A stretch of 64,000 nt of DNA from an uncultured Pelagibacteraceae bacterium (GTDB lineage Bacteria > Pseudomonadota > Alphaproteobacteria > Pelagibacterales > Pelagibacteraceae): positions 1 through 64,000 of the forward strand of contig CACCVU010000002.1 of the NCBI GenBank assembly GCA_902549495.1. Direction: 5' to 3'. The translations under genes were made by a program, and so were the position numbers. Of this stretch, positions 19,231-53,925 are shown piece after piece (positions within the stretch are counted from its first letter, which is position 1; every line of letters begins with the position of its first letter). The notes under the pieces are model-generated. The model was not told where the DNA came from and made no database searches. It saw nothing but the letters and a program-made list of their open reading frames with translations.

Positions 19231-19277
19231 ATAATTTGCATTTGACTTTTTACTTTATTTAGAGGAAAGTCTTTTCC

Positions 19278-19348
19278 GTAACGGGAGAGACCATTTAGGC
19301 GCCGAAGGAGCAACCACCCCGGAAACTCTCAGGCAAAAGGACCGTTAC
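19278..19348 (+). ncRNA. Glycine riboswitch, aptamer 1
   Basis: P1 is GTAACGG (19278-19284) with CCGTTAC (19342-19348). Inside are the conserved glycine-aptamer core GGGAGAGACC, the GCCGAAGGAGCAA segment and ACTCTCAGGCAAAAGGACC. It is joined by a 2-nt linker to a second aptamer, giving the usual tandem glycine-binding arrangement in front of gcvT. The short upstream AGAGGAAAGT may form the kink-turn leader seen in many tandem glycine switches. Confidence 0.95.
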
Positions 19349-19350
19349 CG

Positions 19351-19437
19351 TAATAACTCTGGAAAGCAGGCGAAAGCCTCACCGAAGGATTAAATCTCTC
19401 AGGTACATAGACAGATGGGGTTAGATAAGAGTTATTA
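19351..19437 (+). ncRNA. Glycine riboswitch, aptamer 2, P1 reaching the gcvT start codon
   Basis: Core elements are CTGGAAAGC, a GGC-GAAA-GCC hairpin, CACCGAAGGATTAAA and TCTCAGGTACATAGACAGATGGGG. P1 can form ten perfect pairs: TAATAACTCT (19351-19360) with AGAGTTATTA (19428-19437). The 3' arm contains the only plausible gcvT ribosome site (AAGAG) and the A of the ATG, so ligand-stabilised P1 would directly cover the start. There is no terminator hairpin, which points to translational control. Confidence 0.9.
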
Positions 19438-49134: not shown

Positions 49135-50262
49135 ATGAATTCACTAGGAATTAATAAATCGAAAAAAGAAACAAAAGTAGTTGTTGCAATGTCTGGAGGC
49201 GTAGACTCGTCTGTTGTAGCCGCTCTGATGAAAGAGGAGGGTTATGATGTTAAAGGTATTACTTTAAAACTTTATGATGATACAAAACAATCTAAAGATG
49301 GAAGACAGTGCTGTGCGGGACAAGATATAATGGATGCTAAAAGAGTCTCAGAAAAAATAAATATTGACCATGAAATTCTGTATTACCAAAAAAAATTTAA
49401 ATCAGAAGTCATAGACTCTTTTATTGATAGTTATGCAGTTGGAGAAACCCCTATCCCATGCGTTCAGTGTAATCAGACTGTAAAATTTAGAGATTTATTT
49501 AAATATGCTAAAGATTTTAAAGCAGATGCATTAATTACAGGTCACTATGTATCAAGAATTCAAAACAATGGTCATGCAAGTATGTATAGAGCTAAAGATA
49601 TAAATAGAGATCAAAGCTATTTTCTGTTTAGCACAACACAAGAACAGCTTGATTATTTGAGATTTCCTTTGGGCGAAATTGATAAATCTGAGACAAGATC
49701 CATAGCAAAAAAACTAAACTTAAATGTTGCTGATAAACCGGATAGTCAAGATATCTGTTTTGTACCAAATGGTGATTATAGTTCAGTTATAAAAAAATAT
49801 AGACCCGAGTCATTTCAAAAAGGAGACATAGTTGATCTCAATGGAGATAAAATCGGTGAACATCAAGGGATAATTAATTATACGATAGGTCAAAGAAAAG
49901 GAATAAAAATTTCAAGTGAAAAACCTCTTTACGTAATAAATATTAATGCCAATGAGAACAAAGTTATTGTGGGAAATAAAGAAAATTTAGAAATCAAACA
50001 AATCCAACTTAGAGAATTAAATATTTTGGCAAACAAAGATGAGTTTAACGAAATTATTAATATTAAAGTTAGGTCAACAGGTAGACTTTTAAAAGCAAAA
50101 ATAAAACTTGTTAAAGACTATGCTCAAGTCGAAATCTTAGATAAAGAGACTGGGATTTCACCGGGACAAGCATGTGTTTTTTATTCAAAAGATACTTTTG
50201 GGGATAAAGTTCTAGGAGGTGGCTGGATAGATAAGACTTTTAACAATAAGTTATCCACGTAG
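49135..50262 (+). CDS. mnmA: tRNA-specific 2-thiouridylase MnmA
   Basis: 375 residues. PP-loop [17 protein letters not shown], catalytic cysteines C109 (IPCVQCN) and C208 (SQDICFV), HYVSR, and DRDQ-type RDQSYFLFS. It thiolates U34 of Lys/Glu/Gln tRNAs. The ~15 N-terminal residues before the PP-loop are a charged lead. Conserved C-terminal beta-barrel ends SPGQACVFY. It is followed by the structured-RNA-like segment. Confidence 0.97.
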
Positions 50263-50332
50263 TTAACATACAGCTACAAGACACGCATTAAGTGATAACA
50301 AATTTCTATAGTATGTGATTTAATGTTTTTAA

Positions 50333-50510
50333 TTAAGAGGCAACTCTTAACTGGCCATTTAGGGAAAAACCGAGAGGTTCAAGCTTAAAGGGCAGAAAGG
50401 TGAACCTAGTAGCGCTAGAATAGTTCATCGGGAAGGCTTGGCGGTAGCGCCTAAAACGACGAGCCAAAACTACTAAATTTCTGGGCGAAAGCCTAGAAAT
50501 TTAAGTGGTT
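50333..50510 (+). ncRNA. Candidate structured RNA of unknown class
   Basis: The 238-bp gap after mnmA has no ORF but is far richer in G+C than the surroundings (31 of 60 bases in 50401-50460). Hairpins: TTAAGAG-GCAA-CTCTTAA (50333-50350); AACC-GAGA-GGTT (50368-50379) as an alternative to AGGTTCA/TGAACCT (50375-50381/50401-50407); TGAACCTAG..CTAG..GTTCA (50401-50427); GGCTT/GAGCC enclosing GGCG-GTAG-CGCC (50435-50465); and TAAATTTCTGGGC-GAAA-GCCTAGAAATTTA (50474-50503), extendable by six pairs to 50468-50510. Three GNRA loops on the + strand indicate transcription rightwards. I cannot match it to tmRNA, RNase P, 6S or SRP RNA. Confidence 0.65.
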
Positions 50511-51202
50511 CTCTTCCAAAAAAATCTTGATAATAGATAAAATAAAATTACGCCGACAAAATAATTCCACTCCAACGCATGTTTAAATTGTGTATTTCCT
50601 TTTGTAACTAAAATAGGCAAACTTAAAATTGCAACAACCACTAATATTGAAACAAGAAAAGCTTTGACCACTAAGACTTTTTTATTAATAAATTTTTCTA
50701 ATTTATTTTTAAGTTTGTATAAATGGTAAACTAATAAACCCTGAGCAATAAGCTCAAAAATTATAAATAATAATAAAACAACTCGTCTAAAAAGTTTATA
50801 AATTTGAATATCAAATTTTATTCCTAGAAAAATAGAATGAATAGCTAAAAATATTGCTGATAAAATTCCAAATTTTTTAAAGTTAAAATTAATATCTGAA
50901 GAGTATAATTCATTTACTAAATTATTATTTTCTCTCCAATAATAATACAATAAAACTGCAGTAAATATCATTGAAGGTTTAAAAATTAGGTATTGGGGAA
51001 AGGTTCTTGATGCTCTACTTATAGACAAACTTCCATCTAGATAAGGAATTGAAAAAGCAGATCTTCCAAGCTGATCAACTGTAAATATGGTTCCTTCTAA
51101 TAATTCTGGGTTCTGAGATATTATTAAACAAAAATTAATAGCAAGCAATGGAACTAAAAATATCCAAATACTCAATTTTCTAATTTGAGTTATTGCATGC
51201 AT
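50501..51202 (-). CDS. Unassigned multi-pass membrane protein
   Basis: 233 residues with six probable helices: IWIFLVPLLAINFCLII near the N-terminus, PSMIFTAVLLYYYW, FGILSAIFLAIHSIFLGI, VVLLLFIIFELIAQGLLVYHLY, VVKAFLVSILVVVAILSLPILV and WNYFVGVILFYLLSRFFW. The loop after the first helix has a polar GTIFTVDQLGRSAFSIPYLDGSLSISRASRTFPQ stretch, reminiscent of Frag1/DRAM-like eukaryote-type proteins. No motif gives a function. Its stop codon lies inside the long hairpin of the candidate RNA on the other strand. Confidence 0.55.
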   Translation of the reverse strand: MHAITQIRKLSIWIFLVPLLAINFCLIISQNPELLEGTIFTVDQLGRSAFSIPYLDGSLSISRASRTFPQYLIFKPSMIFTAVLLYYYWRENNNLVNELYSSDINFNFKKFGILSAIFLAIHSIFLGIKFDIQIYKLFRRVVLLLFIIFELIAQGLLVYHLYKLKNKLEKFINKKVLVVKAFLVSILVVVAILSLPILVTKGNTQFKHALEWNYFVGVILFYLLSRFFWKRTT

Positions 51203-51216
51203 AAATATTTAAATGA

Positions 51217-51300
51217 TTATTTCTTCTTATTTCTTTTTCTAGCTCTTCTTTTTTTTGATCCGATTTTTCTTCTTCCTCGGTGCTTTTTTGGATAACCCAT
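51217..51300 (-). CDS. 27-residue very basic protein with a strong ribosome site
   Basis: Missed by the track. Minus-strand ATG at 51300 encodes MGYPKKHRGRRKIGSKKRRA and seven more mostly basic residues (RKRNKKK), then a stop at 51217. About two thirds of the residues are Lys or Arg. It has one of the best Shine-Dalgarno sites in the window (GGAGG, seven bases before the ATG). Size and charge resemble tiny ribosomal proteins (bTHX or the AURKAIP1/COX24-like bS22 group), but I cannot assign it. It sits between the unassigned membrane protein (15 bp) and the divergent metC. Confidence 0.65.
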   Translation of the reverse strand: MGYPKKHRGRRKIGSKKRRARKRNKKK

Positions 51301-52563: not shown

Positions 52564-53786
52564 TGAAAAATTTTTTTCCGAATAAAACTGCATTTTATGC
52601 TTTAATAGCGGCTTGTTTCGTTGTCTGTGCAACTATGGGAGTAAGACAAACATTTGGACTTTACTCAAGTGAATTTGAGACAACTGGAGGAACGTCAAAT
52701 ACAGAATTTGGATTAGCGATTGCAGTTCATGCAATCTTTTGGGGAATCTTTACTCCAATTTTTGGAAGAATTTCTGACAGACTAGGTGGTTATGTTGTAA
52801 TAGTTCCCGCTTTAATTTTCTACTCGATATCAATGCTGTTAATGGGAAATAACTTCATTTCAGGTATGTGGCTACAAATTAATTTAGGTCTACTTGTTGG
52901 TTTGGGTTTAGCAGGCGCTGCCGGGACTATTCTTACCCCAATGATTTCAAAACATTTTCCAAATGAAAATAGAAGTAAAGCAGCAGGTATTGTTACAGCT
53001 TGCGGAGGTTTAGGAATGTTTATATTTCCTATTCTGGCAAATATTTTTAAAAATATTTCTTCTTGGCAAATGTCTTTTATTATTTTTTCGATTATTTTAT
53101 TTTTTATGTGTATACCCGGGTTTTTTGTTAGACTTCCTAAAAATCAAGTATCAAATCAAAATACTAATATTGACAATCGAAGTTTAAAAGAAGTGTTAAA
53201 AGAATCTTTTGCGCATAAAGGATTTAGATTATTAGTTTTAGGTTTTTTTGTTTGCGGTTTTCAAATTACTTTAATAGCTACTCATGTCCCAAGATATGTT
53301 CAAGATAAAGGGCTAGCAGATTGGACGGGAATGGCTATCCTAGCATTAATTGGTTTTTTTAACATTATTGGAACTTTAGTGATGGGTTATTTAGGAGATA
53401 AATATAGTAAAAAAATACTTTTAAGTGGGCTTTATTTTTTAAGAGGAATAACATTAATTCTATTTATTTTTTTACCAGCATCAAATCTGTCTGCTGTGTT
53501 GTTCGGTACATCTTTTGGATTATTATGGCTTGCTACTGTACCAGCTACTAACGGTATCGTTGCTCAAATTTTTGGAACAAAAAATTTAACTCTTCTCTTT
53601 GGCATTGTATTCCTAAATCATCAATTCGGATCATTTCTGGGAGCTTACTTAGGAGGTTATTTTTACGATCAATTTGGAAGTTTCGATTACGCTTGGTATC
53701 TTGCTATAGTCTTATCATTTATTGCTGCAGCTCTTCACCTTCCAATAGACGAAAAGCCTCTGGCAACTGTGGATAAAACTATCTAA
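52563..53786 (+). CDS. MFS transporter
   Basis: 407 residues and twelve helices. MGVRQTFGLYSSEFETTGGTSNTEFGLAIAVHAIFWGIFTPIFGRISDRLGGY carries the MFS loop 2-3 motif (GRISDRLGG), and TLVMGYLGDKYSKKILL repeats it in the second half. It resembles oxalate/formate or monocarboxylate-type (MCT-like) carriers. Coupled to metC, so export or import of a sulfur amino acid-related compound is possible but unproven. Confidence 0.85.
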   Translation: MKNFFPNKTAFYALIAACFVVCATMGVRQTFGLYSSEFETTGGTSNTEFGLAIAVHAIFWGIFTPIFGRISDRLGGYVVIVPALIFYSISMLLMGNNFISGMWLQINLGLLVGLGLAGAAGTILTPMISKHFPNENRSKAAGIVTACGGLGMFIFPILANIFKNISSWQMSFIIFSIILFFMCIPGFFVRLPKNQVSNQNTNIDNRSLKEVLKESFAHKGFRLLVLGFFVCGFQITLIATHVPRYVQDKGLADWTGMAILALIGFFNIIGTLVMGYLGDKYSKKILLSGLYFLRGITLILFIFLPASNLSAVLFGTSFGLLWLATVPATNGIVAQIFGTKNLTLLFGIVFLNHQFGSFLGAYLGGYFYDQFGSFDYAWYLAIVLSFIAAALHLPIDEKPLATVDKTI

Positions 53787-53852: not shown

Positions 53853-53925
53853 TCAAAATTGTGGATAATTTTTTTATTTAATCATTCAAATTTTTTTTAT
53901 AGGCTTGAAATAACAAAGGAGAAAT

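Follow-up and report, generated by a model that had tools for sequence, protein, structure and literature searches.

SAR11 bacteria are among the most abundant bacterial groups of the sea, and IMES-1 RNA (RF02034), like IMES-2 RNA (RF02035), came from marine environmental sequence; the two families are distinct. Among better known bacterial RNAs, 6S RNA (RF00013) is likewise a free-standing regulatory RNA of a size similar to IMES-2, and alpha-tmRNA (RF01849) also comes from a gene that is structured and rich in G+C within an AT-rich genome; in P. ubique, tmRNA is a separate gene (PMC2704228). IMES-2 does not have the 6S fold, there is no 6S match in the window that we analysed (a stretch of 64,000 nucleotides from an uncultured Pelagibacteraceae bacterium), and at the IMES-2 locus there is no Rfam match to tmRNA (RF00023/RF01849). 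In the open literature that we searched, we found no function for IMES-2 and only one, unrelated, mention of the name.

The element at 50333-50510 on the + strand of the window is an IMES-2 RNA gene and thus belongs to a family already in Rfam. Our Rfam scan of the whole window gave a full-length match at 50326-50467 (+), spanning positions 1-141 of the 141 of the model, with 153.9 bits (E = 2.6e-40) against a curated gathering cut-off of 54.7 bits. The sequence-only reading had called the element unassigned and perhaps undescribed and had proposed an Rfam search; the search gave RF02035, the kind of outcome that the reading itself had named as refuting it, and the claim was wrong. Its statement that the element is not tmRNA, SRP RNA, RNase P RNA or a glycine switch holds, since a scan of the region at relaxed thresholds gave no credible family other than IMES-2. 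The remote members L312 and L315 also match IMES-2 only, and L310, which carries the second of the two 3' types described below, matches IMES-2 and otherwise gives only sub-threshold noise. The window has two above-cut-off matches in all, IMES-2 and a glycine riboswitch, whose aptamer lies at 19272-19354 (+) with 64.3 bits. Our element agrees with the Rfam family in its full-length match, hairpin order and SAR11/marine origin; the Rfam model as displayed lacks a contact between the loops of hairpins P3 and P4, the terminator and the promoter cassette seen here.

The gene lies in a gap of 238 bp between the stop of mnmA (50262) and that of a convergent membrane-protein ORF (50501), and no ORF of at least 60 aa was found inside it, in keeping with the earlier description of an ORF-free gap of about 240 bp. 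Also as described, the element is about half G+C: the IMES-2 match has 46%, compared with about 28-35% in 4-kb windows. The flanking mnmA (49135-50262, +) was identified by NF001138 with 425 bits. The membrane-protein ORF (50501-51202, -), which adjoins mnmA in most RNA-bearing genera, has no Pfam or NCBIfam match. Of additional note, a conserved ORF at 51217-51300 (-) encodes a very basic peptide of 27 aa, MGYPKKHRGRRKIGSKKRRARKRNKKK, to which Pfam gives no match; by eye, near-identical frames follow mnmA in SAR11 members L252, L254, L255 and L257.

The region 50326-50520 folds with z = -4.89, and none of 200 shuffles folds equally well. The predicted RNA consists of four hairpins, P1-P4, which are backed by strong covariation: P1 (50333-50350, +; GCAA loop) has 100% of alignment cells paired and 5 of 7 pairs doubly changed; P2 (50351-50395, +), with an internal loop GAAA/CAAG and a GAGA tetraloop, about 95% and 12 of 15; P3 (50399-50429, +), 92.4% and 8 of 8; and P4 (50435-50465, +), 98.3% and 7 of 8. 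P1 and P2 make up a constant 5' half, and P3 and P4 a variable 3' half. Over an alignment of 79 sequences from more than 10 genera, made to a model with the P3 and P4 loops left unpaired, 96.0% of the 3448 cells of the whole structure are paired, and 34 of 44 pairs are doubly changed, with 583 doubly changed cells compared with 161±14 in shuffles (0 of 500). Since G-U cells far exceed A-C cells in the conserved pairs (229 to 18), the + strand is the RNA strand. Base pairing takes up nearly the whole conserved length; invariant among the unpaired bases are GCAA, GAAA, GAGA, CAAG and GGGCAGAAA. Taken together, the fold, the covariation, which had been asked for as a check, and the Rfam match support the earlier proposal of a structured non-coding RNA in this gap, and the GCAA, GAGA and GAAA loops and long 3' hairpin that it listed are present. 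Its two mutually exclusive pairings fared differently: AGGTTCA/TGAACCT is confined to the window sequence and its nearest relatives, and across 56 relatives 48.7% of its cells are paired, compared with 48.4% in shuffles (180 of 500), which gives no ground for assuming a switch. A resemblance of GGTTCAAGC to a tRNA T-arm was also set aside, because by eye this strand pairs within P2 (AAUC/GAUU and AACC/GGUU variants).

Our alignment further points to pairing between the loops of P3 and P4, in which GCGCUA (50412-50417, +) and UAGCGC (50445-50450, +) would form a kissing helix of 6 bp. In this helix 96.0% of cells are paired and 41 are doubly changed, compared with 9.1±2.3 in shuffles (0 of 500), and slid versions reach at most 56% paired; in 56 sequences, the nested structure together with this helix has 96.8% of cells paired. 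Six perfectly complementary pairs of hexamers occur in the two loops: GCGCUA/UAGCGC, GUACUA/UAGUAC, GUGCUA/UAGCAC, GCACUA/UAGUGC, GUUCUA/UAGAAC and GAACUA/UAGUUC. The covariation of the helix is limited to 2 of its 6 base pairs, and 14 sequences lack the outer pair (columns 112-144). Because some of the hexamers, for example GCACUA, cannot pair with themselves, it is the P3-P4 pairing that is conserved, not a P3-P3 dimerization. The two loops may pair inside a single molecule or across two. As far as could be checked, the kissing contact is novel and an addition to IMES-2.

In a draw from the Pelagibacteraceae, IMES-2 was found in 259 of 397 genomes and 12 of 14 genera; 108 of 247 genomes in a draw from the order and 2 of 289 in a draw from the class carry it, all of them Pelagibacteraceae, which bears out the earlier suspicion that the RNA is restricted to SAR11. 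Every positive genome has a single copy, and complete single-contig genomes with IMES-2 (G001, G007 and G015) indicate strains that may be suitable for its study. The listed GTDB genome contigs with the exact 3' motif are likewise all Pelagibacteraceae/Pelagibacterales. In the genus of the window, G113, G180 and G211 have no match and G108 a marginal one; since mnmA is also unassembled in all four, these absences are probably assembly gaps. Several complete genomes of genus g3 have no match either, and there the absence is genuine. One of them is P. ubique HTCC1062, which explains why a P. ubique screen does not list this RNA (PMC2704228); tmRNA and the glycine riboswitch are in this genome at the coordinates published in that study. 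Weak hits in match-less genomes were considered as divergent copies and rejected, being around or below chance, and those viewed resemble coding DNA and lack the conserved motifs; in P. ubique, the intergenic recA-protease region is not a copy of IMES-2 either. Because several complete genomes do without it, IMES-2 is accessory, and because it is absent from complete relatives, it is not a replacement for tmRNA, SRP RNA or RNase P RNA.

The same absences bear on the idea that IMES-2, as a 6S-like RNA bound to RNA polymerase, takes the place of the canonical 6S RNA. In its favor, IMES-2 is free-standing and single copy, and Rfam detected 6S RNA (RF00013) in 0 of 31 SAR11 genomes while detecting it in Caulobacter and four other controls. 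However, several complete SAR11 genomes lack IMES-2, so it is no general replacement, and its fold, made of four short hairpins and the kissing contact, has no long duplex with a central bubble; we consider this idea improbable. As a separate observation, SAR11 bacteria, with 0 of 31 genomes matched by Rfam, may either lack 6S RNA or have a very divergent one. IMES-1 (RF02034), considered as a replacement, matched none of 33 genomes in a search that had no positive-control genome.

The genomic position of IMES-2 differs among genera. It follows mnmA in genera g1, g6, g232 and g233 and in the examined members of g236-g239; it precedes an O6-methylguanine-methyltransferase-like (ATL-type) gene in g3; and it lies in the neighborhood of selO, a gene named by eye, in g2 (with SNase and SRAP genes) and g234 (with an RmuC-family gene). 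The corresponding sites are empty elsewhere: in G003 and G026 mnmA runs directly into the convergent membrane gene, in G003 only a few bases separate a small ORF from the ATL gene, and the mnmA and ATL loci that we examined in match-less genomes have no IMES-2. Within genera the position is stable, and no gene partner is conserved across all contexts. Because it occurs at mnmA, ATL and selO loci, with mnmA and ATL sites empty elsewhere, IMES-2 is not confined to one gene. A riboswitch or cis-acting leader would keep a fixed position 5' of one gene class, and IMES-2 does not. It lies directly 3' of mnmA here and directly 5' of the ATL gene in g3, as might suit a cis-acting element of mnmA or the next gene (a 3' UTR element, attenuator or riboswitch), but the downstream gene here is convergent, the contexts vary by genus, mnmA and ATL genes also occur without the RNA, and the AGGTTCA/TGAACCT pairing is not conserved; a cis-acting role is therefore largely refuted and very improbable.

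The unit that changes place consists of the RNA, its upstream region with a tandem repeat and a promoter-like box, and a terminator-like hairpin; comparison of the loci indicates that IMES-2 travels as a promoter-RNA-terminator cassette that has been relocated over evolution. Around the non-mnmA loci, of the L027 type (g3), L032/L315 (g2) and L312/L314 (g234), genes connected with DNA repair or recombination are found (ATL, an integrase family, SRAP, SNase and RmuC), an association that may be due to chance.

Upstream of the RNA, a tandem 9-bp direct repeat, TTATCCACG|TAGTTAACA (50251-50268, +), made of DnaA-box-like units, overlaps the stop codon of mnmA and is a candidate distal promoter element. 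Among 78 upstream regions, which are related by ancestry and so do not give independent counts, the best TTATNCACA match reaches at least 7 of 8 positions in 72, compared with about 4.7 after shuffling, and 40 cases have a second unit exactly ±9 bp away, compared with 0.02 expected per offset. The sole unmismatched TTATNCACA match in the window is this repeat. In most sequences a TTATCCACA-like unit lies some 65-90 bp 5' of the RNA, frequently doubled into two adjoining direct repeats of 9 bp, and the element is retained at all three kinds of locus. The unit resembles a DnaA box, but a 9-bp period is unusual for DnaA boxes. A chromosome origin at this site, to which the TTATCCACA-like box might point, was considered and rejected: GC skew, positive in most of the window, does not durably change sign at the RNA, exact TTATCCACA boxes are no commoner than the reversed pattern, and the units repeat with a period of 9 bp. 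Elsewhere, between the end of an MFS gene and a CADD-family gene of putative folate metabolism (TIGR04305), two exact TTATCCACA boxes were seen at 53768-53776 and 53860-53868 (-), at a distance of 92 bp.

Closer to the RNA, a -35-like box, AAGTGATA (50290-50297, +), is nearly invariant in 68 distinct upstream regions from all loci, and conserved T/A positions about 17 bp past it mark a putative -10-like region, TATGTGATTTAAT (50312-50324, +); the spacing between the two is 17-18 bp. The box does not appear to be a promoter common to other genes, as CAAYNNNNAAGTGATA with one mismatch occurs at background elsewhere in the genomes. At the 3' end, a terminator-like hairpin of about 19 pairs with a GAAA loop (50468-50510, +) keeps a stem of 9 or more pairs in 78 of 78 relatives tested and probably serves the convergent membrane gene too. 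The U-tract is strong in other genera and weak in the genus of the window (TTCTCTT).

The two halves of the RNA differ in how they vary. Most members of genus g1 share 98-100% identity in the 5' half (P1, P2), whereas for the 3' half (P3, P4) there are two types that share only about 43-44% identity: type A, in the window, and type B, in the g1 members L043, L298, L300 and L303. The type-B 3' half is 83-88% identical between g1, g6 and g232. Since the flanking mnmA and membrane genes of the type-B g1 members are still g1-like, the exchanged tract would be about 100 bp, beginning at the invariant GGGCAGAAA. The two types may have arisen by short-tract recombination or may be an old polymorphism kept across genera; both are possible. 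Two 3' types common to several genera around a constant 5' half, together with different insertion loci, empty sites and an integrase-family gene nearby in g3, could suggest that the RNA belongs to a mobile or selfish cassette or to a phage-related conflict system and that its 3' half is under diversifying selection. However, viral contigs, phages and plasmids have no IMES-2 match, which also rules against a phage or plasmid origin, and the RNA is single copy, stable in position within genera and without an encoded protein that we could find; such a system is quite unlikely.

Based on these findings, we propose, with moderate confidence, that IMES-2 is a trans-acting non-coding RNA of some 180 nt, encoded by a free-standing, single-copy gene that has a promoter-like region and a terminator of its own, and that its transcription is regulated and it acts as an RNP. 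In this scheme, a DNA-binding protein at the tandem 9-bp repeat would control transcription, which would start from the conserved promoter with its AAGTGATA box. P1 and P2 form a nearly constant 5' domain, and P3 and P4, with their loops kissing, an exchangeable 3' domain. Judging from this architecture, the folded RNA would act as an RNP: the invariant bases of P1 and P2 and the GGGCAGAAA linker may bind a conserved partner, and the rigid P3/P4 unit could offer a second, more variable surface. A free-standing, accessory gene with a terminator and a promoter with a possible regulator site would also suit a trans-acting sRNA that regulates mRNAs through base pairing, but hardly any of the conserved length is unpaired, the kissing contact occupies the most exposed loops and no conserved open seed region is apparent. 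In view of this near-complete pairing, of the invariance of the loops and linker and of the lock formed by the kissing contact, we favor a protein-binding RNA and think a base-pairing sRNA unlikely.

More tentatively, and as a rather doubtful reading, IMES-2 might be a mosaic, in which a constant 5' recognition domain is joined to an exchangeable kissing-loop 3' domain on a regulated, relocatable promoter-RNA-terminator cassette, and diversifying selection, for instance against a protein or phage partner that varies, might maintain the 3' types across genera. What is new here for the IMES-2 family is a tertiary (kissing) contact that can be tested, a modular or mosaic 3' half, a tandem-repeat promoter cassette, a candidate regulator site and the absence of the RNA from P. 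ubique.
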